Assembly: GCF_004752005.1 (NCBI RefSeq)
Contig: NZ_CP038493.1
Span: forward strand, 2,566,302-2,630,301
Length of the DNA stretch: 64,000 nucleotides
DNA from: Thalassotalea sp. HSM 43
GTDB lineage: Bacteria; Pseudomonadota; Gammaproteobacteria; Enterobacterales; Alteromonadaceae
Direction: 5' to 3'
The notes under the pieces were generated by a model that saw nothing but the letters and a program-made list of their open reading frames with translations, ran no database searches and was not told where the DNA came from. A program made the translations under genes and the position numbers. Positions 19,600 to 40,910 of this stretch are shown piece by piece. Numbering within the stretch: position 1 is the first letter of the stretch; each line of letters starts with the position of its first letter.

Positions 19600-20550
19600 T
19601 TAGGCACTTTTATTGAGCTTTATTATCCAACCTAGCAGGTTGTCTTTGTCGTCGTGTAGTAACTCTTTCGCAAAAGGTTTTAGGCCTAATTGGTCTGCTT
19701 GAGTTAACAATAGCTCGAGCTTTTTCTCGCTAATCGCGGCATTTTTCAAGTCAGACAGACGTTGTATGTGACTTCTCGCTTCCATTTTGTAGGCGTCTAC
19801 TTTACTGAGCCTTTGTTGCTGGCTAAGTGTCCCTTGCTTAAACAATGTTAAAATCAGATCTTGAATATTGGTATCCATATAACTGGTTTTATTATCTTGC
19901 TCTAAACTGCGTATTTTATTGTTTAGTTTATTTCTTAGCTTTTCCGATTTGGGATCAAAGCGATTGTCATCATCGCCAAGTTGCTTTACGAGCTTAATAA
20001 TAATGGCAAGCAAGCCATTACTGCTTAAGATTTTAGTTAACAACTGAATGGTTTTATTGTTTCTTTTTAAAATCACAGAATCAGCATGATGGGTAACTAG
20101 AATAACCTGTGCGTTGGGCTTAGACACTCTAGATATTTGCGCCAACGTTTGTAATTGGTCGCTGTATTCGAATCCATATTGCGAAGTAACACAATCAAAT
20201 GTTTGATCAGCAAAAGGCAACGTAGTGGAGCAGGTGTTGGGGTACAGTTCGACAGTATCTTGAGCTTGTGATGAAATATCAGCTAATTTTTCGCTAATTA
20301 GGCTGGTATCTATATTAGCAAGGTCGGTCGCGCAAAAATGATGTTCCAGTGCTAATTTATTTGACACTTCAGCGCCGATCAAAGGCAAGGATGCATTGCC
20401 TGTGGCGAGATCAAGAATCTTCGCTTTTTTAGGCAGACTGGAAAAAACGGTCTGCCAAAAATCTAGATATACGCCTTGATAATTATTGTTGAAAGCACTG
20501 CCAAACGACGTTAAAAAGCCACTATGCCAATAGTCGTCCCAATGTTGCAT
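19600..20550 (-). CDS. Class I SAM-dependent methyltransferase in the kynurenine operon
   Basis: The 316-residue protein has a Rossmann-type methyltransferase domain: motif I ILDLATGNASLPL near residue 45, an acidic motif II region (FCATDLANID), and motif LPFADQTFDCVTSQYGFEY. The C-terminal half is helical and charged and may bind the substrate. It starts 44 bp after kynA on the same strand and is the last gene of the tryptophan operon, so the methyl acceptor may be a tryptophan or kynurenine metabolite. That link is inferred from position only. Confidence 0.78.
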   Translation of the reverse strand: MQHWDDYWHSGFLTSFGSAFNNNYQGVYLDFWQTVFSSLPKKAKILDLATGNASLPLIGAEVSNKLALEHHFCATDLANIDTSLISEKLADISSQAQDTVELYPNTCSTTLPFADQTFDCVTSQYGFEYSDQLQTLAQISRVSKPNAQVILVTHHADSVILKRNNKTIQLLTKILSSNGLLAIIIKLVKQLGDDDNRFDPKSEKLRNKLNNKIRSLEQDNKTSYMDTNIQDLILTLFKQGTLSQQQRLSKVDAYKMEARSHIQRLSDLKNAAISEKKLELLLTQADQLGLKPFAKELLHDDKDNLLGWIIKLNKSA

Positions 20551-20594: not shown

Positions 20595-21449
20595 TTACAA
20601 ACGTGTTCGTAATTCAAGCAGTTCTGGAAAGAAACTTATATCCAGTGCTTTTTTCAAAAATCCGACACCAGATGAACCGCCGGTGCCCATTTTATTACCA
20701 ATAATACGTTGTACTGTGTACATGTGCTTAAAGCGCCAGTTTTGAAAGGCATCTTCAATGTCCATCAGTTTCTCGGCCAGCTCATACAACTCAAAGTGTT
20801 TTTCAGAATTGGCGTATACCGCAAGCCAAGCATTTAACACCGATTCATTCTTACTGTAAGGCAAATTAAAATCACGTGTCAGTTGTTCGTCATCGATGGC
20901 GAAACCTGCGCCTGCTAGCGCCTTGATTGCTTCATCGTAGATACTTGGCGCGCTTGATACTTTAGCCAACTCAGCGTGTACTTCAGGCGTTGCTTCGTGC
21001 ACCTTCAACATGGCTTTGTTTTTATTTCCCAGCAAAAACTCTAGCTTGCGGTATTCGTACGACTGAAAGCCAGAAGAGCGACCCAATGCATCACGAAACT
21101 TAAGGTAATCAACCGGTGTTAGGGTTGATAATACCCCCCAGGATTGGGTCAGCTGAATAAAAATCTGTTTAACCCGAGAGATCACTTTAAAGGCATGGCC
21201 AAAGTCACCATCTTGTACATTTTTAATCGCAGCGCTTAATTCAAAGCCGGCTAATTTAAGCCATAATTCACTGGCTTGATGAATGGTGATAAACAGCATT
21301 TCATCGTGCTGATCTGACAATGGCTTTTGCGCGCTCAATATTTGATCGAGACACAGATAATCGCCATAAGACATATCGTTTTTAAAGTCGGTGTGAATGC
21401 TGTCTTCGAGATCGCGAACATTCTTTTCTTGATGATAAGGGCAAGACAT
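20595..21449 (-). CDS. kynA: Tryptophan 2,3-dioxygenase
   Basis: This heme enzyme opens the indole ring of L-tryptophan to give N-formylkynurenine. The 284-residue protein has the typical start DMSYGDYLCLDQILSAQKPLS, the active-site helix IHQASELWLKL with H57, and the axial heme histidine H242 in RFKHMYTVQRIIGNKMGTGGSSG. Length is normal for bacterial enzymes. Its ATG overlaps the kmo stop by one base (TAATG), so translation is coupled. Confidence 0.97.
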   Translation of the reverse strand: MSCPYHQEKNVRDLEDSIHTDFKNDMSYGDYLCLDQILSAQKPLSDQHDEMLFITIHQASELWLKLAGFELSAAIKNVQDGDFGHAFKVISRVKQIFIQLTQSWGVLSTLTPVDYLKFRDALGRSSGFQSYEYRKLEFLLGNKNKAMLKVHEATPEVHAELAKVSSAPSIYDEAIKALAGAGFAIDDEQLTRDFNLPYSKNESVLNAWLAVYANSEKHFELYELAEKLMDIEDAFQNWRFKHMYTVQRIIGNKMGTGGSSGVGFLKKALDISFFPELLELRTRL

Positions 21450-22825
21450 TATGCTGCCTCCAATTTTGCTACAGCTAAGGAATGCAATCGGTCATAAACA
21501 TGCGCTTCTTGCCAGCATTCGGCAATGTTAGGGATTTGCATGATTTCATCCATGATTTGCTTTTGTATGTCACCGGTACGCAATGCGTATTCGTAGGGAA
21601 TATGGGGTGAAAAGGTTACCATAGAATATAATGGCACCCAAAGTTCAGGGTAGCGTTCATTAAACTTTGCTTCTATCTTCTTGCGTAACAAAAAGTTGGC
21701 ATCACCACTGAGTTCACTCATTTCAATGAAGTTGCGTTTAGCAAGTTCGATAATGGCGTCACCATTGGCTTTTCGTGCCGCTTGATAAGCGGGCAAAATC
21801 TGTTGCCAGTCGCCGTTATATTGGCTTTCCAGCTCATCCATCACGCGGCAGTCTTCAAAGCCACAATTCATCCCCTGACCATAAAACGGCACCATAGCAT
21901 GAGCGGCATCGCCAATTAAGGCAACCTTATTGTTAAACACCCACGGATAGATATGTACTAGGCATAATGAGGATGGACGCTTAGCGAGAAAATCATTTAC
22001 CGGATCATCAAGCAAATCAAGCGCATCGGCAAAGTTATCGGCAAAAAATGCTTGTACTTTTTGCGCGTTATCCAGTGATTCGAAACTCAGTTCACCTTCA
22101 TGATCTAAAAACAATGTACAGGTGAATGAGCCATCTGGGTTAGGCAGGGCAATGAGCATGAACTCGCCGCGAGGCCATATATGCAGGGCATTTTTTTCCA
22201 TCTTATGGCTACCGTCCGCATTGGCGCTAATGCTTAATTCCATATAGCTTTGCGGCATGTATTCCAAACTATGGCTTATGCGCTGGCCTTGCAGCTCTTG
22301 TGCCAAGCGACGTACTTTGGAAAACGCACCATCGGCGCCAATCATTAAGTCGCTGTCAAACTCGGCATCGCCATCTTGGCAGCTAAAGGTGCTGTGTAAG
22401 CTGTCAAAATCGAGCTCTGCTAAGCGGTGCTCAAAATGCACCTTAACGTTGTCTTGTTGCTCGGCGATATTAATCAACTGTTCGTTAATGCCTGAGCGTG
22501 ACACAGACCATATCGCTTGATTGTCTTTACCGTATGGGAATGTCGTCAAGTTGCCTTGTTTGTCGTGCATAACCCGGCAATACATCGGAATAGCATGTTC
22601 ACGAATTTCTGTATCAAGGCCAATTGATTGTAAAGCCAACCAACCGCGATCAGATAAGGCAAGGTTAATTGACTTGCCTTGATAAATGTTGGTTTGCCTA
22701 GAGTCTGGGCGCGATTCAAACAAATCGATTGGATAGCCTTTCTTGGCAAGCATTACCGCCAGTAAGCTGCCAACAGGGCCGGCACCGGCGATGGCGATGC
22801 GTTGTTTCTGTGAGTTACTCATCAA
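21449..22825 (-). CDS. kmo: Kynurenine 3-monooxygenase
   Basis: This flavoprotein hydroxylates L-kynurenine to 3-hydroxykynurenine using NADPH and O2. The 458-residue protein has the FAD motif IAIAGAGPVGSLLAVMLAKKG at the N-terminus, the DG motif region MIGADGAFSKVRR, and the second FAD motif ALIGDAAHAMVPFYGQGMN. The C-terminal part carries the family's helical region. It lies 11 bp after the decarboxylase-kynureninase fusion and overlaps kynA by one base. Confidence 0.97.
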   Translation of the reverse strand: MMSNSQKQRIAIAGAGPVGSLLAVMLAKKGYPIDLFESRPDSRQTNIYQGKSINLALSDRGWLALQSIGLDTEIREHAIPMYCRVMHDKQGNLTTFPYGKDNQAIWSVSRSGINEQLINIAEQQDNVKVHFEHRLAELDFDSLHSTFSCQDGDAEFDSDLMIGADGAFSKVRRLAQELQGQRISHSLEYMPQSYMELSISANADGSHKMEKNALHIWPRGEFMLIALPNPDGSFTCTLFLDHEGELSFESLDNAQKVQAFFADNFADALDLLDDPVNDFLAKRPSSLCLVHIYPWVFNNKVALIGDAAHAMVPFYGQGMNCGFEDCRVMDELESQYNGDWQQILPAYQAARKANGDAIIELAKRNFIEMSELSGDANFLLRKKIEAKFNERYPELWVPLYSMVTFSPHIPYEYALRTGDIQKQIMDEIMQIPNIAECWQEAHVYDRLHSLAVAKLEAA

Positions 22826-22836
22826 ATACCTCCCGC

Positions 22837-24885
22837 CTAGTGTTGCCAGTTGGCAAGCAAACCTTTAAGTACTTGGCCAAAACGATAGACATCACTAAAG
22901 CTGTTATACAAAGGTACCGGTGATAGACGGACAACATCAGGTTCACGAAAATCAGCAATTACGCCAGCTTCCGTTAGTGTTTTAAAGAATGACTTATCGG
23001 TACCCACCAATTTAACGGACAGCTGACAGCCGCGCTGATTTGGATTTTGTGGGGTGATAATTTGCAGTTCAATATTGTCAAACTGACCGACAATATCGTT
23101 AAAAATAAACTCTAAGTAACTGGTTAGTTTTAAGCTTTTCGAGCGCAGTTTTGCCATACCGACTTCATCAAACATATCTAAAGATGACTTCAATACGGCC
23201 ATCCCCATGACTGGTGCATTACTAAGTTGCCAGCCTTCTGCTCCTGTCATCGGTTGGAAGCTGTTTTCCATCAAAAAGCGACGCTCTTTGTTATGACCCC
23301 ACCAGCCACCAAAACGATTTAGCTCGGTATTATTGCCGTGTTTATCATGAACGAAAATAGCGGCGGTATTACCTGGGCTAGAGTTCAAGTATTTATAAGT
23401 ACACCAAGCAGCAAAATCGACATTCCAGTCATGCAATTGCAGTTCGATATTGCCAACACCATGCGCCAAATCAAAACCCGCTAAAGCGCCAACACTATGA
23501 GCTGCTTTTGTTAAGGTTTGCATATCAAACACTTGACCGGTGAAATAGTTGACGCCGCCTAAGAACACCAATGCAACCTCATCGCCATGTTGTTGTATGG
23601 TATCGATGATGTCTTGCTCGCGAATGGTATGTTCTCCCTCACGCGGTGCCACTTCAATAATCGCATCATCCGGTTGGAAACCATGATGACGCACTTGCGT
23701 TTCAAGCAGATAACGATCCGATGGAAACATTTTCGCTTCGGCGATGATCTTAAAGCGTTTTGCTGTTGGCTTGTAAAAAGAGACAAACAACAAGTGTAAG
23801 TTGTTGGTTAATGAGCCCATACAGACCACTTCCGACTCATTCGCGCCCACTAGATTGGCCGATTGTGGTGTTAATAGTTCATGGTAACTCACCCACGGAT
23901 TTTTCGCTTCAAAGTGGCCCTCGACGCCCCATTTAGCCCACTCGTCTAACTCGGTATTAACGTAGTCGCGAGCCGCTGTTGGTTGCAGACCTAATGAGTT
24001 GCCGGTGAAGTACAATACTTGCTCGCCATTAATTACTGGGTGATGAAATTTATCGCGGTATGGTTTTAATGGATCTTGATTATCCATTTGCTCGGCAAAT
24101 TCTTGGCTGTTTTCAAAGGCATTATTTGGCAACAGATGAAATCCACAGCCGCCTAATCCTTCAACCTCGACGCTGATATGTTGACCCGCCTCTAGTGCAA
24201 CCGCAGCCGTAGCGGCGCCGGCAAGAATGATTTGTCCCGGTAGCAGTTCTTCGCCTGATTCGGCAATGCAACGAGCAGCCTCAACCAGAGAGTTTAACGG
24301 ATGATCTAAAATCGCGCTGCTGTCGCCGCTGGCGGCGCTTTCACCATCAACCAGTAAGTCCATATGCAAGTTGCTGATATCGGTATCAGCTGCATGCCAT
24401 TTACCAATAATAAAGCCGGTACTTGAACAGTTATCGGCGATAACATCGGACAACGAAAACTTGAAGTTACGATAACGTGAGTCAATGATTTCAATAGCGG
24501 GGGCGATCGCTTCTACGGCGGCGAGCGCTTGTTCAGGGGTAACAATGCCAGAAAGAGGCGCTTTTAATTTGAAGGCAATTTCTGGTTCAGCGCGCGGATG
24601 AACGTATTCATTTAAATTGATACTGTCATTTTGCTTGATGATCATAGAGTCTGTTAGGCGACCCCAAATCAAATCATCGACGCCCATCTGAATCATCTTA
24701 GCGCGTGAGGTAAAGCCCATTTTATAACCCACTAATTTCTCGCCGCGCTCAAGGCGCTGGTCGATGCTGAGCTTTTGTACTTGATAAGCTTGAGGTAATG
24801 ACAATTCGGTATCTATCGACAGCTGTTCGACACTTTCTGCGGTCATGGCTGCGTTATCTAATTTGATGGCTAATTCGTTTAACAT
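22837..24885 (-). CDS. kynU: Fused 4-oxalocrotonate decarboxylase - kynureninase
   Basis: The continuous 682-codon frame joins two complete enzymes. Residues 1 to about 253 are a 4-oxalocrotonate decarboxylase of the DmpH/XylI/NbaG type: [21 protein letters not shown], metal ligands E100 and E102 (RAEPEIAF) and E132. From about 258 onward is a full-length kynureninase: GNSLGLQP at 295-302, DLAHGVGN, the PLP lysine K498 in [11 protein letters not shown] and GWWGH near 527. Kynureninase releases 3-hydroxyanthranilate and alanine; the decarboxylase acts several steps later. The linker is short (about [12 protein letters not shown]). I know of no standard fusion of this kind, though relatives may share it. 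Confidence 0.92.
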
Positions 24886-24946: not shown

Positions 24947-25939
24947 CTAGATGCCAAAAAATTGCTCAGCGTTGCTGGCAAGTAATTTTTGTTTGACGTC
25001 GTCTGCGAGGGTTGGCGCAGTCTTAATTAATTGTCCCATTTGCTGTTCGCCCAAAGGGAATGGGTAATCGGTGCCAAACATTAAGCGCTCGGTGCCCATC
25101 TTGCGTACCAGTAACTCTAAAGAGTCATGGTCAAATACGGCAGTATCAAGATGGAAGCGATTTAAATAATGACTCGGTGGAAATTCAGATTTCCCTCGAG
25201 CGATATCACGGTGATGCCAGGCGTTATCCAGACGGCCTAGCAAAAACGCAAAAGAGCCACCGCCGTGAGCAAAACAGATTTTTAACTTGTCTGACACTCG
25301 GTCAAAACCACCGCCTAAAATCATCGAGACAATGGACAGTTGAGTTTCTGCTGGCATACCAACGGTCCAGCCCATCATGTAATCTTTGGTGCGCTCGCTC
25401 GCCATCATGTCCCAAGGATGGACAAATACCGCAACATCTTCGCTAGCACAGTGTTGTAAGAAGGTTAATACACCTTCATCATCCATATTTTTAAGACCAA
25501 CGTGGTTGCCTATTTGCACACCAACATGGCCAATACTTTTAGCGCGAGTCACTTCTTTACAGGCTAAATCGACGTCCTGTAATGGCACTTGTGACATCGC
25601 AAATAAACGAGTTGCGTCATGGCTGCATATCTCCATCGCCGCATCATTAAATATTTGTGCGCAATAATGTGCTTGTTCTGGCGGCTTTTGATAGGCAAAC
25701 AAAATCGGCGTTGCAGAAATGATTTGTTTTTCTACGCCATCTCTGTCCATTTCTTCAAGGCGTACAGCAGGATCCCAACAAGCGGAATAGATCGGGCGAA
25801 ATTCTTGCTGGCCTTTCATAAGCATGGCTTTGCCATCGTCTTGATGGCGTAGCCATGGCCAGTCATCGCCGCCAAACTTGGCTTGTAAGTCTTGCCATGT
25901 TTTCGGGAAAAAGTGAGAGTGAATATCGACAACGCGCAT
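24947..25939 (-). CDS. nbaD: 2-amino-3-carboxymuconate-6-semialdehyde decarboxylase
   Basis: ACMSD decarboxylates the ring-opened product of 3-hydroxyanthranilate to 2-aminomuconate 6-semialdehyde, steering flow away from quinolinate. The 330-residue amidohydrolase-fold protein has the zinc ligands H7 and H9 (DIHSHFFP), VFVHPWDMM, CFAHGGGSFAFLLGRLDNAW and the aspartate of FGTDYPFPLG. All match the ACMSD family. Length is normal. It follows the dioxygenase gene by 3 bp in the operon. Confidence 0.96.
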   Translation of the reverse strand: MRVVDIHSHFFPKTWQDLQAKFGGDDWPWLRHQDDGKAMLMKGQQEFRPIYSACWDPAVRLEEMDRDGVEKQIISATPILFAYQKPPEQAHYCAQIFNDAAMEICSHDATRLFAMSQVPLQDVDLACKEVTRAKSIGHVGVQIGNHVGLKNMDDEGVLTFLQHCASEDVAVFVHPWDMMASERTKDYMMGWTVGMPAETQLSIVSMILGGGFDRVSDKLKICFAHGGGSFAFLLGRLDNAWHHRDIARGKSEFPPSHYLNRFHLDTAVFDHDSLELLVRKMGTERLMFGTDYPFPLGEQQMGQLIKTAPTLADDVKQKLLASNAEQFFGI

Positions 25940-25942
25940 AGT

Positions 25943-26948
<1,006 letters not shown>

Positions 26949-26996: not shown

Positions 26997-28466
26997 TTAT
27001 TGTTGGTCTATTTGGATACATACATTGCTTGGTTCGCTGTAGAACCCTAGCGAATGCTGACCACCTTCACGGCCGACACCGGATAACTTCATACCACCAA
27101 AGGGGGTACGTAAATCCCGTAAAAACCAGGTGTTAACCCATACCAAGCCAACATCTAATTGTGCTGCTGTGCGATGCGCTCGGCTTAAGTTTTCTGTCCA
27201 TATCGAGGCGGCGAGACCGTATTCGGTATTATTAGCACGTTGTAGAACCTCATCTTCGTCGTCAAATACTGAGACATGACAAATCGGGCCAAAAATCTCT
27301 TCCTGATTGGTGCGAGAGGTATCGTCTAAATCGGTGATGATGGTGGGTTCAATGAAATAGCCGTTATCGCGTTCATCGTTAAATTTTGGTACACCACCGC
27401 CACTAATAAACGTCGCCCCTTCATCCTTGGCTAACTGGTAGCATGCCAACACTTTTTGTTGATGAGCTTGCGATACCAAAGGACCCATAAAAACCTTTTC
27501 ATCGGTTGGGTAACCTATGGTGATGTTTTCTGCTTCGCGTTTTAATCCGTCGACAAATTCGGCAAAAATACTGCGCTGCACATAGACTTTTTCGGTGCAC
27601 AAACACACTTGGCCACAATTGGTAAACGTAGAGCGGGCAACACCTTTGACGGCTTTGGCTAGGTCGGCATCGGCGAAAACAATCGCGGCGTTTTTACCGC
27701 CTAGTTCAAACGATAAAGGTTTAACGGTATTGGCAGCACTGTTCATAATGTGTTTGCCAGTTTTTGATGCACCGGTAAAGGTAACCGCATTAATGCCGGT
27801 GTGCGCGGTTATGGCATCGCCGATATCTGTACCGCGACCCAATATGAGGTTAAATGCACCTTTTGGAATGCCGACTTCATCCATGATCTGCGCCAATAAA
27901 TACATGGTCGACGAGGTTTCTTCTGAGGGTTTAACAATAACTGAATTGCCACAGGCCATCGCTGGCGCGATTTTCCATGTCGCTAACAATAACGGTAAAT
28001 TCCACGGAGAGATAATAGCAACCACACCTAAGGGTTTATTGACGGTGTAGTTTAGGGCTTTATCACCATTGGCTTGTTCGGTGATAAAGGTTTCACCGCC
28101 CTGAAACTTAACCATATCAGCAAAGGTTCTAAAATTTGCGGTGCCACGCGGAATATCAATGGTTTTTAATTGATGCAATGACTTACCGGTGTCGCGCATT
28201 TCCGCATCAATAAACTCTTGCTCTCGCTCGGCCATTCGGTCAGCGACTTTATGTAATAAGGCGCAGCGTTGATTAACGGTCATTTTGCCCCAGCTATGTT
28301 GCTGGGCATGACGAGCGGCATGTACGGCTTGGTCAATCAAAGGCTTGTCGGCTTGATAAATATCGCCAATCTTGCTGCCATCGACCGGGTTGATGTTGTC
28401 AAAACATTGCCTTGTTTCGACAAATTCGCCGTCAACATAGCAATATAAATCCTGAATATTGGACAT
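26997..28466 (-). CDS. nbaE: 2-aminomuconate 6-semialdehyde dehydrogenase
   Basis: This NAD-dependent aldehyde dehydrogenase oxidises 2-aminomuconate 6-semialdehyde to 2-aminomuconate. The 489-residue protein has the ALDH motifs SPWNLPLLLATWKIAPAMACGN, catalytic E254 in FELGGKNAA and catalytic C288 in NCGQVC. Close relatives are AMSDH and hydroxymuconic semialdehyde dehydrogenases. It is the first gene of the minus-strand operon. The ATG at 28466 is preferred to a GTG 9 bp upstream; neither has a strong ribosome site. Confidence 0.93.
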   Translation of the reverse strand: MSNIQDLYCYVDGEFVETRQCFDNINPVDGSKIGDIYQADKPLIDQAVHAARHAQQHSWGKMTVNQRCALLHKVADRMAEREQEFIDAEMRDTGKSLHQLKTIDIPRGTANFRTFADMVKFQGGETFITEQANGDKALNYTVNKPLGVVAIISPWNLPLLLATWKIAPAMACGNSVIVKPSEETSSTMYLLAQIMDEVGIPKGAFNLILGRGTDIGDAITAHTGINAVTFTGASKTGKHIMNSAANTVKPLSFELGGKNAAIVFADADLAKAVKGVARSTFTNCGQVCLCTEKVYVQRSIFAEFVDGLKREAENITIGYPTDEKVFMGPLVSQAHQQKVLACYQLAKDEGATFISGGGVPKFNDERDNGYFIEPTIITDLDDTSRTNQEEIFGPICHVSVFDDEDEVLQRANNTEYGLAASIWTENLSRAHRTAAQLDVGLVWVNTWFLRDLRTPFGGMKLSGVGREGGQHSLGFYSEPSNVCIQIDQQ

Positions 28467-28694
28467 AGTAAACACGGTGTTAACAAATAATGATTAACTC
28501 TAGCGCGTTTTATTAAATAACAAAATTTTTAAAAAATTACGTTTTTAATAAATATTGTGAATGCTTTTATATTCAAAATATTTATCTTTAGTGATAATTA
28601 ATTCAATTTATCGAAATGCCAATTCGGGTCTATAGTTTTTAGCTGACGTTTGAAAACAATAATAATAACCTTTAACAACGTTTCGGATATTGCC

Positions 28695-29552
28695 ATGTTG
28701 TACCGTGAATTTGACCTTGAACAATTAGAAACTCAATACTCACCGAGTAGCTGTATTGACGATATTAACGTGTTTATTCAGCGTTATGTTGATGACAGTA
28801 AGTCCTCGGCGCTATGGGCTGAGCAACATCAAAGCCTGCGCAGCAACTTAGCTTATGGCGACAGTGAGGATGAACTGATTGATATGTATTTACCAACGGC
28901 TAAGCAAGCCAAAGGTAAATTACAGGTATATATTCATGGCGGATATTGGCAACAATTAACCAAGGATGAGAGTGCCTTTGCTGCGAATAATTTTCAGCAG
29001 CTGGGCTGTCACTTTGCTGTGATCAACTATGCGCTGGCGCCTAAAGTGCGTCTAGCGGATATTGTTGAACAAAACCGTCGTGCCATTGCCTGGCTCTACT
29101 TAAATGCTGATAAGTTTGGTTATGATGCTGAACAAATATATTTGTCTGGTAGCTCTGCTGGTGGTCATTTAGCGATGCTGATGGCGCAAACCGACTGGCG
29201 ACAATACGGTATTGAGAATGGCGATTTTATCAAAGGAATATGCGCAGTCAGTGGCATATATGATCTCGAGCCTATTGCCCATACCTATATCAATGAGCCG
29301 CTGCAGCTAAGCGAGCAAGAAATTCAAACCTTAAGCCCGATACGATTATCAACGCCACAATGTCAGGTCATTATTGCCTATGGTGACAATGAAACCAGCG
29401 AATTTAAACGCCAAAGTGATGACATGGCGCGTCGACTAGACTGTGCAAGTTTGCAAGTTGCGCGATGCAATCACTTTGATGTGATCATGGAACTTAGTGA
29501 TGCCAATTCGACATTGTGTCAGCAGGTGATTAAGCAAATGCAGTTGGCTTAG
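28695..29552 (+). CDS. kynB: Kynurenine formamidase, alpha/beta-hydrolase type
   Basis: The product hydrolyses N-formylkynurenine to kynurenine and formate. It is the alpha/beta-hydrolase type found in eukaryotes and some bacteria, not the metal-dependent cyclase-type KynB. It has the oxyanion motif HGGYWQ (residues 81-86), the nucleophile S154 in GSSAGGHLA, and a late histidine in CNHFDVI. The frame is open to a TTG at 28650, but family members start MLYRxFD, so I use the ATG at 28695 (285 residues). It is divergent from nbaE. Confidence 0.88.
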   Translation: MLYREFDLEQLETQYSPSSCIDDINVFIQRYVDDSKSSALWAEQHQSLRSNLAYGDSEDELIDMYLPTAKQAKGKLQVYIHGGYWQQLTKDESAFAANNFQQLGCHFAVINYALAPKVRLADIVEQNRRAIAWLYLNADKFGYDAEQIYLSGSSAGGHLAMLMAQTDWRQYGIENGDFIKGICAVSGIYDLEPIAHTYINEPLQLSEQEIQTLSPIRLSTPQCQVIIAYGDNETSEFKRQSDDMARRLDCASLQVARCNHFDVIMELSDANSTLCQQVIKQMQLA

Positions 29553-30679: not shown

Positions 30680-31480
30680 ATGCAACAGCAACAATTACAA
30701 GCACTGGCAGATGAGCTATACAGCGCATTAACGTCACGTCAGACAATCACACCTATCAGCGAACGAGAAGGTGAATTTACCTTAGATGACGCCTATAAAG
30801 TGTCGCAATTGTTTTTACAACAACGTCTGCAACGTGGTGAAAAGGTTATTGGTAAAAAGATCGGTTTAACCAGCAAGGTTGTGCAGGACATGTTAGGTGT
30901 GCATCAACCGGATTTTGGTTTTTTAACCGATACCATGATTTATCAAAGTGGTGCCAAAATACCGTTTAGCAAAGAGCTGATACAAGCGAAATCGGAAGGT
31001 GAAATAGCCTTTATTCTTAAGCATGATTTGCAAGGGCCTGGGGTCACACCTGACGATGTCCTAAATGCCACCGAATCGGTTGCGGCCTGTTTTGAGATCG
31101 TTGACTCTCGGGTTGCTGATTGGCGCATTACAATTACTGACACCGTTGCGGATAACGCCTCTTGTGGCATTTTTGTGTTGAGTGACGAGCGAGTAGACCC
31201 ACGCAAGGTAGACTTTGAACAGTGTCAGATGCAAATCCACAACCATGACCAACTTATTGCTGAAGGTCAGGGCAGTGCCGCGTTAGGCTCACCCTTAAAC
31301 TGTGTTGCCTGGCTAGCAAATGTATTAGGCGATTATGGTGAAAGTCTCAAAGCTGGTGAGATCATATTGTCAGGTTCTTTGGCGGCGATGATCCCCTGTA
31401 AAGCGGACGACAACATGCGCATGCATATTGATGGTGTTGGCAGTGCCAGCTATCAATTTGTTGATGACGCAAATGAATAA
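30680..31480 (+). CDS. mhpD: 2-oxopent-4-enoate (2-keto-4-pentenoate) hydratase
   Basis: The enzyme adds water to 2-oxopent-4-enoate to give 4-hydroxy-2-oxovalerate. The 266-residue protein has GKKIGLTSKVVQDMLGVHQPDFG, matching MhpD hydratases rather than the decarboxylase, and the metal-ligand segment AKSEGEIAFIL with a later glutamate in FEIVDSR. It is a paralogue of the decarboxylase half of the kynureninase fusion. It starts the plus-strand mhpDFE-like operon that finishes the pathway. Confidence 0.93.
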   Translation: MQQQQLQALADELYSALTSRQTITPISEREGEFTLDDAYKVSQLFLQQRLQRGEKVIGKKIGLTSKVVQDMLGVHQPDFGFLTDTMIYQSGAKIPFSKELIQAKSEGEIAFILKHDLQGPGVTPDDVLNATESVAACFEIVDSRVADWRITITDTVADNASCGIFVLSDERVDPRKVDFEQCQMQIHNHDQLIAEGQGSAALGSPLNCVAWLANVLGDYGESLKAGEIILSGSLAAMIPCKADDNMRMHIDGVGSASYQFVDDANE

Positions 31481-31520: not shown

Positions 31521-32417
31521 ATGACTAACAAGATTAATGTTGCTTTAATTGGTTCCGGTAATATTGGTACCGATTTGATGATCAAAGCATTGCGCAGTGA
31601 CATCATAAATCCCGTATGGATGGTTGGCATAGACCCAGATTCTGATGGCTTGGCAAAAGCTCGCGATGCCGGTCTTAAAACCACCGCCAATGGCATAGAT
31701 GGCCTACTCGAACACATCGACGCTGATAATATTCAAATTGCATTTGATGCCACCTCGGCATACGTACATGGTGAAAATAACGCTAAATTACAAAGCAAAG
31801 GCGTTAAGGTGATTGATTTAACGCCTGCGGCGATAGGCCCATTTTGTGTACCGCCGGTCAATTTAGAAGAACAGATTAAAGCTAACTTAGCCAACGTCAA
31901 TATGGTGACCTGTGGCGGTCAAGCGACGATTCCAATCGTTCATGCCATCTCCCGTGTTCAAGATGTTGATTATGCCGAAATTGTTGCCACTATTGCATCA
32001 AAGTCGGCAGGTCCGGGTACCCGTAAAAATATCGATGAATTTACCCGCACAACCGCTGGCGCGCTGGAAAAAGTAGGCGGTGCCAAGCAAGGTAAAGCCA
32101 TCATTGTTATGAATCCGGCAGAACCACCATTAATGATGCGTGATACCGTGCATTGTTTATTGCCAGATACCCCCGATGAGCAAGCCATTACCGAATCTGT
32201 ATTGAGCATGATAGAAAGTGTTCAACAATATGTACCTGGTTATAGCTTAAAGAATGGCCCGGTATTTGATGGCAACCGAGTCTCGGTATTTTTAGAAGTG
32301 GCTGGTCTTGGCGACTATCTGCCGAGCTATGCCGGTAACCTCGATATCATGACAGCGGCGGCATTAAAGACCGGTGAAATGATTGCAAGCAAGCTCGCCA
32401 TTGATAGCGCAAGTTAA
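31521..32417 (+). CDS. mhpF: Acetaldehyde dehydrogenase, acylating
   Basis: The enzyme converts acetaldehyde, NAD+ and CoA to acetyl-CoA, usually by channeling from the aldolase. The 298-residue protein has the nucleotide-binding GSGNIGTDL near residue 11, the catalytic cysteine C131 in [10 protein letters not shown] and the DmpF/MhpF-family [15 protein letters not shown] stretch. It is 2 bp upstream of the aldolase frame or 11 bp from the preferred start, as expected for a two-subunit complex. Confidence 0.97.
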
Positions 32418-32428
32418 GGATGAATACT

Positions 32429-33448
32429 ATGAATTTACGCAACAAAAACATAACCTTGCATGATATGTGTTTGCGCGATGGTATGCATGCGAAACGCCAT
32501 CAAATTTCGTTGGATGAAATGGTTAGTCTTGCGACTGCTTTAGATGATGCGGGCGTGCCATTAATTGAAGTGACACACGGTGACGGCTTAGGCGGCGCAT
32601 CGGTGAATTACGGTTTTCCTGCGCACAGCGATGAAGAGTATTTATCGGCAGTGATCCCAAAGATGAAACAAGCGAAAGTATCGGCGCTGCTATTACCAGG
32701 TATCGGTACCATCGACCATTTACAAATGGCCTACGAGCATGGCGTCAACACCATTCGTGTAGCAACCCAATGTACCGAAGCGGATGTGAGTGAACAGCAC
32801 ATTGCTAAGTCGCGAGAACTGGGCATGGATACCGTTGGCTTTTTGATGATGGCACATATGCTAGAGCCTGAGCAATTGCTGGCACAAGCCAAATTAATGG
32901 AAAGCTATGGTGCGAATTGTATTTACTGTACCGACTCAGCCGGCTACATGTTGCAAGAGGATGTATACAGCCGCATTAGTGCCTTACGCGAAGGTTTAAA
33001 CAGTGACACTGAAATTGGCTTCCATGGTCATCACAACCTTGCACTTGGTGTGGCCAACTCGCTAACCGCGGTAGAAGCCGGTGCAACGCGCATTGACGGT
33101 TCAGCGGCAGGGCTTGGTGCTGGCGCAGGGAATACGCCTTTAGAGGTGTTTAATGCGGTAGCGACACGCATGGGCGCCAATACCGGTGTTGATGTGTTTA
33201 AATTGATGGCCGCGGCTGAAGAGATTGTCGTGCCTATGATGGAGCAACCGATACGTGTTGACCGCGACTCGCTTGTGCTGGGTTATGCCGGTGTTTATTC
33301 ATCATTCCTATTACACGCCAAACGTGCTGCAGCCAAATACGGCGTTCGTTCTGAAGAAATCTTAATGGAGCTAGGGCGGATGAAAACCGTCGGTGGTCAA
33401 GAAGACATGATTGAAGATGTCGCTCTGAACTTGGCAAGACAAAAATAA
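32429..33448 (+). CDS. mhpE: 4-hydroxy-2-oxovalerate aldolase
   Basis: The aldolase splits 4-hydroxy-2-oxovalerate into pyruvate and acetaldehyde. The DRE-TIM barrel protein has [16 protein letters not shown] with the catalytic R-D pair and the metal site [15 protein letters not shown]. It ends with the communication domain used to pass acetaldehyde to MhpF. The ATG at 32429 has AAGGA at good spacing; an in-frame ATG at 32420 overlaps that ribosome site and is less likely. Length is then 339, as in MhpE. Confidence 0.96.
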
Positions 33449-34303: not shown

Positions 34304-35659
34304 TTAACTGACGCTTACTTGCTCCGTTAACGTTTTGCGTAATGGTTGATGAATGACGTATTCACCAATCAGCAAAACAGTAGCAAGACCTAAACTGGTT
34401 ACTAGGAAGTCGTTGATATTAAAGCCACCTGGCGGAAAGATAAAAAATACAATGGCTTGTACCAAGAAGGCCATCGCCGGTACCACCAATAGCAATTGCT
34501 TAGATAGAGCTTTTTTACCCGCTGATTTTTGTAGAATCATATAGGTAGGAAATAGCGCCAAGTAGGGCAATAAGAAAATCAGATTGGCAAACGAAAATAA
34601 CGCCCAAAATAACCCTTCCGCTGATGACGCCATAGTGCCGTACAATAAAATCGCGGTTGTTGAAACCACACCGGTAAGTAAGCTGGCGCCGACAGGCGTG
34701 CCGTACTTTTTGTGGTCGATGGCAAATACCGCTGGTAGTTCGTTGTCATGAGCGGCTTCACTGGCTGCTCGGTTGGCACCCATGCCCCAAGTGACAATAT
34801 TGGCTATAAAACTAAAAATTGCCATAAAACCAACCATGTACAACAATATATCGCCAAACGGCAGTGGTGCGAGCATACGCTCAAAGGTTTGTAATAGTCC
34901 GGTAACTAGGCCGATATCTTCAACCGGAATCGCTACTAATATCCCCAACACTGCAAATAGATATAACGCCGTAATGATCACCCCTGCGACCAGCAAGGAT
35001 ATCGGAAGATCGCGCTTGGGATTTTCCATTTCATCGCCGGAACAACAGATTAGATCAAAACCCATTAATGAGAATATAATCACCGGAAAAAACTGTAACC
35101 CTGCATCCCAACTTGGCGTTAAGTTACTTATATTTATGGTATTAGCGACACCTTGTTCAAAAGCCATCATCACCCCGCCAATACCCAGTAATAGCACCAC
35201 CAGCATTTTGCACCAAGCGCCGATTATTGGCACCCACTTGCCTGAATCCGGTGAAATGATGCACACTGCAACAGAAATCCAAGTGGCAATAAGGGCGATA
35301 ATAATTTGCCAATATAGCGGCATGCCAGGCCAGAATAATTCGGCGCTGAATCCGGCGAGCATAATAAAAGCAGCCGGCATCCATAAGGCGACGTTAATCC
35401 AATAAAGCCAGCTGGTGCGTGCAGCCCATTTATCACCGAGGGCTAATTTTACCCAATGTACAATGCCACCTTTTGACGGAAATTGAGTACCTAGTTTGGC
35501 ACTGATTAACGCATAAGGAATGGCAAAACAGATAAACGACAATACCCACCAAGTTAATGATTGAACGCCAATAGCCGCGGCTGCAGCAATGCCATCGATG
35601 GTTAATATCGCACTGATTGTGAAAAGGGTGATCTCTTTTTTCGTAAGCTTGTTAACCAT
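34304..35659 (-). CDS. APC-family amino acid/polyamine permease (second copy)
   Basis: The 451-residue protein has about twelve transmembrane helices and APC-superfamily features, including GIAAAAAIGVQSLTWWVLSFICFAIPYALISAKLGTQFPSKGGIVHWV. It is a clear paralogue of the permease at 36918-38324, with the same domain order and many shared motifs ([25 protein letters not shown]). A terminator separates it from aguA, so it may be expressed on its own. Agmatine, putrescine or another amine is a likely substrate from position only. Confidence 0.85.
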   Translation of the reverse strand: MVNKLTKKEITLFTISAILTIDGIAAAAAIGVQSLTWWVLSFICFAIPYALISAKLGTQFPSKGGIVHWVKLALGDKWAARTSWLYWINVALWMPAAFIMLAGFSAELFWPGMPLYWQIIIALIATWISVAVCIISPDSGKWVPIIGAWCKMLVVLLLGIGGVMMAFEQGVANTINISNLTPSWDAGLQFFPVIIFSLMGFDLICCSGDEMENPKRDLPISLLVAGVIITALYLFAVLGILVAIPVEDIGLVTGLLQTFERMLAPLPFGDILLYMVGFMAIFSFIANIVTWGMGANRAASEAAHDNELPAVFAIDHKKYGTPVGASLLTGVVSTTAILLYGTMASSAEGLFWALFSFANLIFLLPYLALFPTYMILQKSAGKKALSKQLLLVVPAMAFLVQAIVFFIFPPGGFNINDFLVTSLGLATVLLIGEYVIHQPLRKTLTEQVSVS

Positions 35660-35723
35660 AATGACTCTCGACTTAAAAGGCAGTGTGCGCTGCTAATGCA
35701 TGATTTGCGGGCAAATAACGAAG

Positions 35724-35748
35724 AAAAGCCAGATCCTTCTGGCTTTTT
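35724..35748 (-). terminator. Terminator of aguA
   Basis: AAAAGCCAGA / TCTGGCTTTT with loop TCCT lies 5 bp past the aguA stop; on the minus strand it ends in a T-rich run. Confidence 0.88.
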
Positions 35749-35752
35749 CGGT

Positions 35753-36847
35753 TTATGCTACCGCGGGAATCTGCTGAGTTATGCAATGTATGTTGCCACC
35801 GCCAAGCAGAATCTCTCGAGCTGGTACACCAACGATGTCGTAGCCTGGGAACGCTTGTTGCAACACAGCTTTCGCGTCGTCATCGTATTTCGGATCCAAC
35901 AATGGCAGGATGATGCGCTGATTGGTGATCAGGAAGTTCGCATAAGAGCCTGCAAGGCGTTCACCTGCTTCGCGCTCCATACCGTCACAACTATCGATAC
36001 CTTGCGCTTCTTCTTCAGTGATAAAAAGAGGGCCTGGAATGTGCACTTTGTGCACTTTTATTTGGCGACCTTGAGCATCGGTTTCATTGGTTAAGGTTTT
36101 GTATGCGGCCTGAGAAATAGCGTACTGCGGGTCGTTTTCATCGTTGCACCAAGACAAGACCACTTCGCCAGGTTTAACTACATGAATCAGGTTGTCGACA
36201 TGACCATTGGTTTCGTCGTTATACAAACCGTTTTTGATCCAAATAACTTTTTCAATACTAAGGTGGTCTTTTAATACCTGCTCAATCTCTTCTTTGCTCA
36301 AATCAGGGTTGCGACTTGGGTGCAATAAACACTCTTCTGTGGTGTATAAAGTGCCTTCACCATCAACGTGTATTGATCCACCTTCGAGAACGATAGGAGC
36401 ACGATAGCGATCATTTCTCATCACTTCGCATATTTTACTCGCTACTTGATCATCTTTATCCCAAGGGAAATACAACCCATCGACCAAGCCGCCCCAAGCA
36501 TTAAATTCCCAATCTACACCACGGCGTTCACCTTGCGTGTTGATGACATAGCTTGGCGCAATATCACGCATCCAAGCGTCATCAGTGGTCATTTCAACAA
36601 CGCGAATCTTGTCTGATAGACGGCTTCTAGCGTTGTCGTATTGATCCGCTGAAACAGCCATGGTTACCGGTGTTACTTCGGCGATTGCTTCTGCGACATC
36701 AATAAATGTTTTTTGAGCGGATTTACCACCATTGCGCCAATTATCCGAGCGCTCTGGCCAGGCAATCCAAATTTCATCTTGTGCTTCGTGCTCACCAGGC
36801 ATGCGGAAACCATCGGCTGCTGGTATAGACTTCAATAACATACTCAT
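35753..36847 (-). CDS. aguA: Agmatine deiminase
   Basis: The enzyme hydrolyses agmatine to N-carbamoylputrescine and ammonia. The 364-residue protein has the guanidino-enzyme fold: [62 protein letters not shown] and the catalytic cysteine C355 in GGGNIHCIT. The frame extends to 36952, but the ATG at 36847 follows GGAG and starts the conserved domain, so I chose it. Two permeases flank it, and the carbamoyltransferase and kinase genes lie divergently. Confidence 0.96.
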
Positions 36848-36878
36848 GTGATTCTCCAGTAATTTGTCTACTAGGTTG

Positions 36879-36905
36879 GCCTGCTGACGAAAACCATCAG
36901 CAGGC
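36879..36905 (-). other. Intercistronic hairpin upstream of aguA
   Basis: GCCTGCTGA and TCAGCAGGC pair perfectly over a 9-base loop in the 70 bp between the permease and aguA. There is no T run, so it looks like a processing or stabilising stem. Confidence 0.6.
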
Positions 36906-36917
36906 GCATAGTTGAGG

Positions 36918-38324
36918 TTAGGCAGCAGGGGCGCTGGCCGGTTGTTTGGCAAGGCGTTTCATTGCCCCAGCAAGTAGGTATTCACCAACAGCTATGGTAA
37001 TGACAATGCCTATTGCTACTGGTGTTGTGTATGTCCAATCAATCACACCTGAGAAAATTTCAGGGAAAATGAACAACAACACAGCTTGAGCGATAAAGAA
37101 GGTACATACCGCAGCGATAGCGTATTGTGTTTTCATACCGCCAGGCACTTTGTACGGACGTGGTTTGTTTGGATCCAATTTGCGTAATTTAACGTGCGCA
37201 GGAAACATCAATAAATAAGGTAATAAGAATATGCATGAAGAAAATGCGAATACTGACCAGAATAATGCGTCACTTTCACCTGATGTTAAACCATACAGAA
37301 TGATAACAATGGCAGAAATGATACCTGTAATGTTGTTCGCACCAACCGGTGTTTTGTGAACAGGGTGTTCTTTAGCAACCGCATCAGGTAACTCGCCTTG
37401 CTGCGCTGCTTCCATTGCCGCACGACTGGCACCCATTGTCCAGGTTACCATATTGGCAATAAACGTTAATAACGCCAATGTACCAATGATGTAGACCATT
37501 GCAGTACCAACAGGACCATTACCAAATAATGTTTTCAAAGTGGCGATGATACCAGAGACAAGACCGACATCTTCTACTGGCAGAGCTAGCAAGATACCAA
37601 GCGTACCAAAGATGTATAAACCGGTCACAACGGCAGCCGATAACATAATCGATTTAGGGATATCTTTTTGTGGATCTTTAATGGCATTGCCCATACAAGC
37701 AACAAGTTCAAAGCCCAATAGGTTAAAGACAATAACAGGTAAGAAACCCAATGCGGAATCAAAACTTGGCGTCATAGTCGCTAAGCTAAATTCATTGGCA
37801 ACGCCATGTTCCATGGCGTACATAAAACCACCGACACCTAAAACAAGAATAACAACTACCTTGGCTAACGCACCGAGGTTGGTTACCCACACACCGGCGT
37901 CTACCGAAATATTACAGATGTTTATGGTGATTGCGGTTAACAGTACGCAAATTGCAATTTGCCACCATAAACCCAGACCTGGGAAATACATTTCAGCAAA
38001 CATACCAGCAAACATTATGTATACCGCCGGCATCCATAGAGCAACGTTTATCCAATAATAAAAGGTGGTTCTAACCGCCCATTTAGTGCCGAATGCACGC
38101 TTAACCCAATCGTAAATACCACCTTCACCTGGATAGGTCGTGCCTAACTCGGCGGAAATCAAACCATAAGGGATGACAAAAACGAATAATGTGATCAGCC
38201 ACCAGGTTATCGCTGATGGGCCAAGAGATGCTGAGGCGGTTAAGGTATCGATAACCAGTACCGCACAAACGCTGAAAAGGGTGAGGCTGGGTAAGCCCAT
38301 CTTTCCACTTGTTTCTTTAGACAT
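36918..38324 (-). CDS. APC-family permease, likely agmatine/putrescine transport
   Basis: The 468-residue protein has about twelve membrane helices and starts [42 protein letters not shown], typical of APC amine antiporters. It is the first gene of the operon with aguA. In lactic bacteria the agmatine deiminase operon has an agmatine/putrescine exchanger (AguD) in the same role, so exchange of agmatine for putrescine is the best guess. Substrate is inferred from context only. Its promoter probably lies at about 38437-38485 with an FNR-type site. Confidence 0.86.
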
Positions 38325-38455
38325 GACGCTACTCCACTTAATGTAACAATATTTTCTGAATCTTGTCGTTTGCCTTACTTATGTCGTTGTTAAGTGAGCG
38401 ACCAAGTGTGTTCGTAAACGTCAAGTGATTCAAATCGAGGTGGATGCTACATTCT

Positions 38456-38485
38456 CGATAAATATCGAAATTTGATGTAGATCAA
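38456..38485. promoter_or_regulatory. Composite element 1: CGATAAATATCG box plus FNR site
   Basis: CGATAAATATCG (38456-38467), a 4-bp gap, then TTGATGTAGATCAA (38472-38485), a perfect FNR consensus. With the FNR centre at -41.5 for minus-strand transcription, the -10 falls on TAGCAT (complement of 38444-38449, 4 of 6). The palindrome would then lie in the promoter spacer, a repressor-like position. Confidence 0.65.
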
Positions 38486-38664
38486 CGAATGCATCTTAAA
38501 TGGATAAATATCTATAAAATTATCATTTTGGGCGTTTTAACTGTTAATGGGTGTGGTTTTATGGGTTAAAAACTGTAACCTTGTAACTCATTGTAATTGC
38601 TTTGTTTAGTTGTGCTTAATGTTAGCTGTTTGTGGTAAATGAATGGTATTAAAAGGCAATTAAA

Positions 38665-38680
38665 GCCGATAAATATCGGC
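38665..38680. promoter_or_regulatory. Palindromic box GCCGATAAATATCGGC
   Basis: A perfect 7-bp inverted repeat with an AA centre, the longest copy of the box. Its centre is 22 bp (two helical turns) from the box in composite element 2, which suits cooperative binding on one DNA face. Confidence 0.6.
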
Positions 38681-38689
38681 ATAAATACC

Positions 38690-38719
38690 CGATAATTATC
38701 GAAGTTTGACCTAGATCAA
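38690..38719 (+). promoter_or_regulatory. Composite element 2: CGATAATTATCG box plus FNR-type site
   Basis: CGATAATTATCG (38690-38701), again a 4-bp gap, then TTGACCTAGATCAA (38706-38719), one mismatch from the FNR consensus. With that site at -41.5 for ptcA, the -10 position matches TACACT (38741-38746) within 1 bp. This is a class II activator layout. Confidence 0.65.
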
Positions 38720-38857
38720 TTCCTTGGCGTAAATCCTCACTACACTGGCCGCAAGTTTTGAATCAATCGATTTAAATCTGTTTTTTGGCTTTCGGCATAT
38801 CACTTTCTGAATTACCGATTTCCGCAATATAGATTATGTTTTATTGGAGCAGTTATT

Positions 38858-39904
38858 ATGAAACTACCATCAGCTACAGCAACCGACCTAAACAAACCAG
38901 GCCTTCGTCACTTCTTGAAAACTCAAGATTTCACTAAACAAGAATTGACTGAAATTCTTGATCTAATGACGCTGTTAAAGCAGGCGCGTAAGGACAATGC
39001 CGTTCCACAATTGTTCAAAGGCAAATCTGTTGCAATGATATTTGAACAGCCGTCGACTCGTACTCGAGTGTCGTTTGAAACAGCTGCAACAATTTTAGGT
39101 GGCCATGCGCTATTTCTTTCGCCAAAAGACATTCACCTTGGCGGTAAAGAGAATATTGCCGATACCTCTCGCGTGCTTTCTCGCATGGTAGATATCATGA
39201 TGGCGCGAGTCGATGACCATAAGACGGTTGCCGATTTAGCTGAACATGCCACGGTGCCGGTCATCAATGGTTTATGTGACTGGTTGCATCCAACACAAAT
39301 GATGGCTGACATCTTTACCATGATGGAACACTTGCCAGCAGGCAAAGACTTAAGCGATTTGAGTGTTGCCTTTGTTGGTGACGCGACCAATGTTGCCTCA
39401 GAGCTTATGTTCATTTGTACCAAGTTTGGTATGGACTACAAACACATTGGTCCTGCGAAATACCAAGTACCACAAAAGTGGATCGATATTGCTGAAGAAA
39501 ACTGCAGCTTATCCGGCGGTACATTGACCATCACTGAAGACACTAATGCGGTGGAAGGCTGTGACATTTTAGTTGCCGATAGCTTTTACTGGTTTGGTCA
39601 AGAAGCAGAAAAAGATGATCGTTTAGCGACGTTTATTCCTGAGTACGTAGTTGATCAAAGACTTATGGATAAAGCTGGACCTAACACTATGTTCATGCAT
39701 TGCTTACCAGCAAATGATGAGCGTGAAACGACGCGTGAAGTGATGGATGGCGACAACTCGCTAATCTTTGACGAAGCAGAAAACCGTCTAACAGCGCAAA
39801 TGGCGTTACTTGTGTACTTTACTCACAAGCACACCAAACCGGCAGACGATGCGATTGCTGCTGATCACGACGCCATTATCGGCGATTTCTTAACCAAGCT
39901 TTAA
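38858..39904 (+). CDS. ptcA: Putrescine carbamoyltransferase
   Basis: In the agmatine deiminase pathway this enzyme phosphorolyses N-carbamoylputrescine to putrescine and carbamoyl phosphate. The 348-residue protein is of the ornithine/aspartate carbamoyltransferase superfamily, with the carbamoyl-phosphate motif STRTR (66-70), HPTQ (144-147) and MHCLPA. The ornithine-binding SMG loop is missing and the segment reads ADSFYWFGQEAEKDD, as in putrescine-specific enzymes. aguA and arcC next to it support this. Catabolic ornithine carbamoyltransferase is the alternative. Confidence 0.85.
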   Translation: MKLPSATATDLNKPGLRHFLKTQDFTKQELTEILDLMTLLKQARKDNAVPQLFKGKSVAMIFEQPSTRTRVSFETAATILGGHALFLSPKDIHLGGKENIADTSRVLSRMVDIMMARVDDHKTVADLAEHATVPVINGLCDWLHPTQMMADIFTMMEHLPAGKDLSDLSVAFVGDATNVASELMFICTKFGMDYKHIGPAKYQVPQKWIDIAEENCSLSGGTLTITEDTNAVEGCDILVADSFYWFGQEAEKDDRLATFIPEYVVDQRLMDKAGPNTMFMHCLPANDERETTREVMDGDNSLIFDEAENRLTAQMALLVYFTHKHTKPADDAIAADHDAIIGDFLTKL

Positions 39905-39922
39905 TGCCTTGTTAGCAAACAA

Positions 39923-39949
39923 CAGTGTTTCGGCATAGCCGAAACACTG
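39923..39949 (+). other. Intercistronic hairpin between ptcA and arcC
   Basis: CAGTGTTTCGGC and GCCGAAACACTG form a perfect 12-bp stem with loop ATA and no T run. It may protect or separate the two mRNA parts. Confidence 0.7.
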
Positions 39950-39980
39950 AGTTTAAATTGAGATTGAATTGGAGTGAGTT

Positions 39981-40910
39981 ATGAGAATCGTTGTCGCTCT
40001 TGGTGGTAATGCTTTGCTAAAACGTGGCGAAGCTATGACCGCTGAAAACCAACTGTGTAATGTCAAAATTGCCGCTAGCGCTCTGGCAGAGCTTGCCAAA
40101 GAGCACGAAATTGTTATTGCTCATGGCAATGGTCCGCAAGTTGGCTTGCTGGCTTTACAGGCTGCATCTTATGAAACGGTTGCCCCGTATCCTTTGGATA
40201 TTTTAGGTGCCGAAAGTGTGGGTCAAATAGGTTATATGATTGAACAGCAAATGGGCAATATACTGCCGTTTGAACAAAAATATGCCACCTTGCTGACCCA
40301 AGTTGAAGTGGATGCCAATGACCCTGCATTTGCTGACCCGACCAAATTTATCGGTCCTGTTTACAGTTATGAACAAGCCGACCTTATCGCCAAAGAACGT
40401 GGCTTCACGTTTAAGCCCGATGGCGAATATTATCGCCGTGTTGTGCCGTCACCATTGCCTAAACGAATTTTTGAAATATCGGTTATTGAAATGTTGATAG
40501 AGCAAGGCGTGATCGTTACCTGTGCTGGCGGTGGTGGTATCCCAACCATGTATCAAGAAGATGGCACGTTAACCGGCGTTGAAGCGGTTATTGATAAAGA
40601 CAGAACGGCCTCTTTATTGGCACGAGAGATAAATGCAGACGCCTTATTGGTATTAACCGATGTTGATTCGGTATACCTAAATTGGGGTACGGATGAGCAA
40701 AAAGAAATTCGTACAGCATCCACTCAAGCCATGTCTGAATTTGGCTTTCCGGCAGGTTCTATGGGACCCAAAGTTGAAGCGGCAATTGAATTTGCGCAAG
40801 CAACTGGCGGCTTAGCCTGTATCGGTTCATTGGAAAATGCTAAGGCAATGCTTAACGGCGATGCTGGCACCACGGTGTTGAAAGATTGCGAGCAAACAGT
40901 CTACGCCTAA
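39981..40910 (+). CDS. arcC: Carbamate kinase
   Basis: The enzyme transfers phosphate from carbamoyl phosphate to ADP, giving ATP, carbon dioxide and ammonia, and so is the energy-yielding step of the pathway. The 309-residue protein begins [15 protein letters not shown] and has [22 protein letters not shown]-like [25 protein letters not shown] and the C-terminal [13 protein letters not shown] motif. Length is normal. It lies 76 bp after ptcA. Confidence 0.97.

Follow-up and report, generated by a model that had tools for sequence, protein, structure and literature searches.

4-Oxalocrotonate decarboxylase (4-OD) is described in PMC5480330 as functioning in a complex with vinylpyruvate hydratase, and the solved decarboxylase–hydratase complex of Pseudomonas sp. 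AP-3 (8ih6), which corresponds to AmnD–AmnF in the naming of PMC6742747, comprises five chains of each enzyme. The decarboxylase in that complex is a stand-alone chain. The NahK 4-OD of Pseudomonas putida G7 (5d2f-5d2k), which belongs to a different ring-cleavage pathway, is unfused, and the human-type kynureninases (7s3v, 2hzp, 3e9k) stand alone, without a decarboxylase domain. In the 64,000-nucleotide stretch of Thalassotalea sp. HSM 43 DNA analysed here (the window), by contrast, a decarboxylase bears a kynureninase at its C-terminus. The resemblance of the two halves to the solved enzymes is apparent: the N-terminal domain is 54% identical to the AP-3 decarboxylase chain (TM-score 0.95 on target), with which it shares the lower pathway (PMC6742747), and 35-36% identical to NahK, with the same fold and the metal-site glutamates conserved in the alignment; the C-terminal domain is 42-43% identical to the human-type kynureninases (TM-score 0.88-0.89 on target), with the pyridoxal phosphate (PLP) lysine at the same position. 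The nearest comparison comes from Thalassotalea sp. ND16A (L024) and Thalassotalea sp. 42_200_T64 (L026), which possess the same operon in the same order and domains 77-81% identical, but in which the decarboxylase (DEC) gene ends at its own stop codon and the kynureninase (KYN, kynU) gene has a start of its own in another frame. We read the HSM 43 gene as encoding a genuine bifunctional enzyme that arose from the joining of two adjacent operon genes, and put the probability of this reading at roughly 0.85.

The open-frame listing of the window gives an uninterrupted frame of 682 codons on the minus strand (24885..22837); the plus strand of 22837..24885 has stops throughout. The identity of this 682-residue protein is supported by the open frame, Pfam and NCBIfam models, sequence matches in the PDB and relatives in the genus. 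The decarboxylase domain (residues 3-250; 24136..24879, minus strand) aligns with the 4-OD chain 8ih6_F at 277.8 bits (E 6.3e-82) versus 111-120 bits for hydratases (E 4.6e-31 for the hydratase chain 8ih6_A), and is thus decarboxylase-like rather than hydratase-like. Its score against TIGR03218 is 200.7 bits, under the curated cut-off of 350.55. This model takes its name from the catechol pathway, and no match in any of the 15 genomes of the genus passes that cut-off; we therefore file the domain as 4-OD-like by its nearest relatives and not as a TIGR03218 member. The kynureninase domain (residues 264-676; 22858..24096, minus strand) reaches 459.5 bits against TIGR01814, for which the cut-off is 246.4, with positions 1-398 of the 400 in the model covered, and matches 7s3v, 3e9k, 2hzp and 1qz9; Lys498, at the PLP lysine position, aligns with Lys276 of human kynureninase. 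Residues E100, E102 and E132 fall in motifs aligned with 4-OD structures, and we take them to be the metal-site glutamates, as we assume the catalytic roles of the other active-site residues named here. K55, E100, E102, E132 and K498 are identical in nine of nine aligned sequences, four fused and five split. The preliminary description of this DNA had proposed two complete enzymes in one 682-codon frame with E100, E102, E132 and K498 present; the frame, the two domains and the residue numbers all hold, and to them we add the strand, which it had not given.

Between the domains lies the junction (residues 251-263; 24097..24135, minus strand), delimited by DNA alignment of fused with split genes and by an AlphaFold2 model built on an alignment of 37 sequences from the window and the fetched loci. 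The model (pLDDT 88.6, pTM 0.87) presents two well-formed domains, for which the top Foldseek matches are the 8ih6 decarboxylase and human kynureninase, respectively. A nine-residue loop (252-260) links the strand 245-251 to the helix 261-270, with block pLDDT values of 89-96 across residues 241-280. Because the model was made without partner chains, the interdomain angle was not used as evidence.

The fusion sits within a minus-strand operon in the order AMSDH, Rid deaminase, HAO, ACMSD, fusion, KMO, TDO. These genes encode 2-aminomuconate 6-semialdehyde dehydrogenase (AMSDH; 26997..28475; best solved match 4i1w, E 1.9e-201), a Rid family 2-aminomuconate deaminase (26529..26948; 6izh, E 1.2e-54, next match 2e-21), 3-hydroxyanthranilate 3,4-dioxygenase (HAO; 25943..26521; TIGR03037 and PRK13264 above their cut-offs), 2-amino-3-carboxymuconate 6-semialdehyde decarboxylase (ACMSD; 24947..25939; 2hbv, E 1.3e-118), kynurenine 3-monooxygenase (KMO; 21449..22825; assigned from its open frame, its sequence and the same operon place in fused and split operons) and tryptophan 2,3-dioxygenase (TDO; 20595..21449; TIGR03036 at 387.0 bits, cut-off 390.7). 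On the plus strand follow an alpha/beta hydrolase that context makes a candidate kynurenine formamidase (28650..29552; its best match is a lipase, with the kynurenine formamidase 4e11, E 2.2e-14, among other esterases), a hydratase discussed below, an acylating acetaldehyde dehydrogenase (31521..32417; TIGR03215 at 468.4 bits, above cut-off) and 4-hydroxy-2-oxovalerate aldolase (32420..33448; TIGR03217 at 548.9 bits, above cut-off). Judged by its genes, the cluster is predicted to be able to take tryptophan to pyruvate and acetyl-CoA via meta-cleavage of 3-hydroxyanthranilate and 2-aminomuconate, its lower half being that of the amn pathway as laid out in PMC6742747. A methyltransferase-like gene (19600-20550) follows TDO on the same strand and is unmatched beside TDO in the relatives compared; an Rfam scan of the window returned one tRNA and nothing else.

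With the pathway order taken from general knowledge and PMC6742747, four steps separate kynureninase from 4-OD, and the genes for all four (HAO, ACMSD, AMSDH and the deaminase) are present. The domains thus act at separate, non-consecutive steps, as had been proposed, and this is not a channelling-type fusion, in which the product of one domain is the substrate of the other. Each domain most likely keeps its ordinary activity: the C-terminal part would convert 3-hydroxykynurenine to 3-hydroxyanthranilate and alanine, and the N-terminal part would, several steps later, decarboxylate 2-oxo-3-hexenedioate and pass the product to a separate hydratase held in complex with it. When the HSM 43 genome (one contig, 4.01 Mb) was queried with the whole fusion, only the fusion itself and the hydratase were found, and a TIGR03218 search of the same genome matched only these two. 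There being no second 4-OD or kynureninase in the genome, the fusion supplies both steps, which bears out the earlier suggestion, made because the cluster showed no separate decarboxylase, that the fusion provides the decarboxylation. Automatic annotation may label such a protein as one enzyme and so lose the other pathway step.

The expected partner of the decarboxylase domain is a separate 2-oxopent-4-enoate hydratase (30680..31480, plus strand), which scores 379.2 bits against TIGR03220, slightly below the cut-off of 408.8, and matches 1sv6 (E 1.3e-58) and 8ih6_A (E 4.1e-50). Its preference within 8ih6 is the reverse of that of the N-terminal domain, at 173.9 for the hydratase versus 112.2 for the decarboxylase. 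This gene was overlooked in the preliminary description, and it is the hydratase partner that poses the real scaffold question.

Operons that lack the decarboxylase offered a further line of evidence on the function of the N-terminal domain. In six related loci (L027-L032), KYN follows ACMSD with no decarboxylase between them; ACMSD, the Rid deaminase and AMSDH are present in these operons, without a 4-OD or hydratase match. Among ten genomes with such a kynureninase and no adjacent decarboxylase (G069, G064, G135, G146, G174, G127, G151, G090, G108, G071), nine lack any TIGR03218 match and the other has one weak hit (25 bits); each of two split-pair genomes searched alongside yielded a decarboxylase and a hydratase. 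Since TIGR03218 also detects the hydratase, the decarboxylase and the hydratase come and go as a pair across the twelve genomes, which lends independent support to the function of the N-terminal domain. A genome of the genus (G008) may be an exception to this joint pattern: its one strong TIGR03218 match (209.6 bits) is 35% identical to the decarboxylase domain and may be a hydratase alone.

The preliminary description had proposed that the same domain order be sought in other genomes. An uninterrupted full-length fusion is present in four of the 15 genomes of the genus, that of HSM 43 (G000) and three congeners (G009, G014, G005), whose proteins are 79-81% identical to the HSM 43 fusion. Two of the 15 carry the genes adjacent but split (G007, G011), three only a more distant decarboxylase (55-56%), and six give no match at E 1e-60. 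Among the matches listed for 395 genomes of the family, from which a very diverged fusion could escape, the full-length fusion appears only in these four, and none beyond them appears among the rows listed for genomes of the class (369), order (394) and phylum (398) at a limit of 1e-100, the four samples overlapping. On plasmids, 563 records match, none of them over as much as 80% of the query. In the best 80 of at least 574 GTDB loci, a set that does not contain the other three fused genomes, the decarboxylase adjoins kynureninase in five (L022-L026), all of them split. A 949-residue open frame in G574 was rejected as a further fusion, its kynureninase being an ordinary frame of 451 residues and the long frame merely free of stops. 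No description of such a fusion was found in titles or abstract starts of the open-access literature. The fusion is real, clean and phylogenetically narrow, being seen in these surveys only in four species of one genus. Across the six fused pairs, pN and pS are 0.14-0.20 and 0.72-0.89 for DEC and 0.12-0.15 and 0.72-0.78 for KYN, with synonymous sites saturated, values indicative of purifying selection on both domains in the fused species.

Six near relatives have DEC and KYN adjacent and split by a stop (L022, L023, L024, L025, L026 and L106/L135). Beyond the genus, such split pairs occur in a Shewanella nanhaiensis contig (L023), a metagenome-assembled contig labelled Cellvibrionales (L022), G070 (L025/L105) and G109 (L106/L135). 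The L022 kynureninase groups with that of Cognaticolwellia mytili (L029) at a tree support of 100/100, for which reason L022 may be mis-binned or transferred. In the 42_200_T64 draft, the hydratase and aldolase genes (L026, 2890-3674 and 918-1930) each match in two pieces, which may reflect sequencing errors or broken genes.

Taken together, a model for the origin of the fusion emerges. The ancestor would have carried a 4-OD gene directly upstream of kynU in an operon ordered AMSDH-Rid-HAO-ACMSD-DEC-KYN-KMO-TDO, and a single frame would have resulted once the stop of the decarboxylase gene, the short spacer and the ribosome-binding site of kynU were gone. Where the alignment places the former kynU start codon (24121..24123, minus strand), HSM 43 has AAT, two of the other fused genes have ATA and AAA, and G005 keeps the ATG. 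A tree of the six other operon genes places the four fused genomes in one clade (96/97), and a tree of all eight genes groups them with a support of 80/83. Met267 is likewise common to all four fused genes and rare among unfused rows. The simplest reading is that there was probably a single fusion event; two fusions, or a fusion followed by fission, would be the alternative, since in the tree of DEC and KYN alone G009 falls with the split ND16A and T64 (support 93/91), a weak disagreement that does not reject a single fused clade (p-AU 0.083). Joining of neighbouring operon genes is a known kind of event. The genus and its neighbours show operons without the decarboxylase, with the adjacent gene and with the fusion, a case caught in the act, and these three states make the question of selected versus neutral fusion of non-consecutive enzymes directly testable.

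Both activities, the complex in HSM 43 and any benefit of the fusion are what we infer, and accounts of that benefit differ without touching the bifunctional anatomy. The account that fares best, to which we give even odds, is neutral: two adjacent, co-translated cistrons lost a stop and a spacer, the loss was tolerated, and it was fixed by drift with no gain from the fusion itself. The relatives stand close to such a step, six having the genes adjacent, with ND16A having them overlap by 4 nt (ATGA) and L022 and L023 having them in-frame with a single TAA between. That the two steps are non-consecutive, and that the fusion occurs in just four species of one genus among the genomes and loci surveyed, also fit a neutral origin, after which the change would be hard to undo because the kynU ribosome-binding site was lost along with the spacer. 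Retention of the fusion at constant junction length in four species that have reached synonymous saturation speaks against drift, but it would follow equally from purifying selection acting on the two activities. A neutral origin explains the data as well as the stoichiometry or scaffold idea of the preliminary description does.

A selected advantage of tethering, by which an early and a late enzyme of the pathway would be held at a fixed ratio or in one place, is possible but somewhat doubtful. The fusion would enforce one kynureninase per decarboxylase and, as 4-OD works in complex with its hydratase (PMC5480330), should tether kynureninase to the decarboxylase–hydratase particle. The five-plus-five composition of 8ih6 and the short linker with ordered residues in the AlphaFold2 model are in keeping with this. 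However, two of the four genomes with the fusion (G005, G014) have their hydratase gene elsewhere in the genome, at 55-57% identity to that of the window, which indicates that any complex has tolerated a change of partner, and the kynureninase and 4-OD steps are far apart. An extension of the tethering idea, by analogy with 8ih6, is a superassembly. Kynureninase pairs as a dimer, and if the particle is built of five chains of each enzyme, as the chain count of 8ih6 suggests, its odd number of five kynureninase domains would call for pairing between particles, cross-linking them into larger bodies. We consider this unlikely; if true, it would hold early and late tryptophan-catabolic enzymes together.

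Also improbable, and more so, is continued production of a free-standing kynureninase by internal initiation, at Met267 or at the old ATG of G005 (residue 255). Met267 is present in four of four fused rows versus five of 105 unfused rows (118 segments found, nine that misfit the pattern dropped, some genomes counted twice), which would favour such a start. The kynU gene has its own Shine-Dalgarno sequence in three split relatives (-9.5 kcal/mol in ND16A, -5.3 and -4.1), whereas the energies at Met267 of the fused genes (-2.2, -2.2, -1.5 and +1.9), none above background, and at the G005 ATG (-2.4) resemble the means for internal start codons (-0.8 to -1.9) and do not approach the ND16A value. 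Three of the four fused genes also have a weak start of their own (-0.9, -1.5 and -1.0, with -4.0 in G009), so that this measure is suggestive rather than decisive; kynureninase most likely comes from the fusion alone. An assembly or sequencing error that joined two genes by removing a stop or frameshift, which the preliminary description had placed between residues 250 and 262 as a finding that would overturn it, has a negligible probability and is excluded by the same fusion in three congeneric genomes, with constraint on both domains and a junction stretch between two anchors of 231 nt in all four fused genes, where the six split pairs have 234-290 nt.

Two further observations were made beside the fusion. 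In addition to its fusion, G009 carries a second compact cluster (L134; G009:C1:3018000-3037900) ordered ACMSD-HAO-Rid-DEC-HOA-ACDH-HYD-AMSDH, at 40-70% identity and with the decarboxylase unfused. Near the tryptophan cluster of HSM 43, the interval 34304-40910 contains two amino acid permeases, a peptidyl-arginine/agmatine deiminase-type protein, a carbamoyltransferase and an amino acid kinase, which together look like an agmatine deiminase route.
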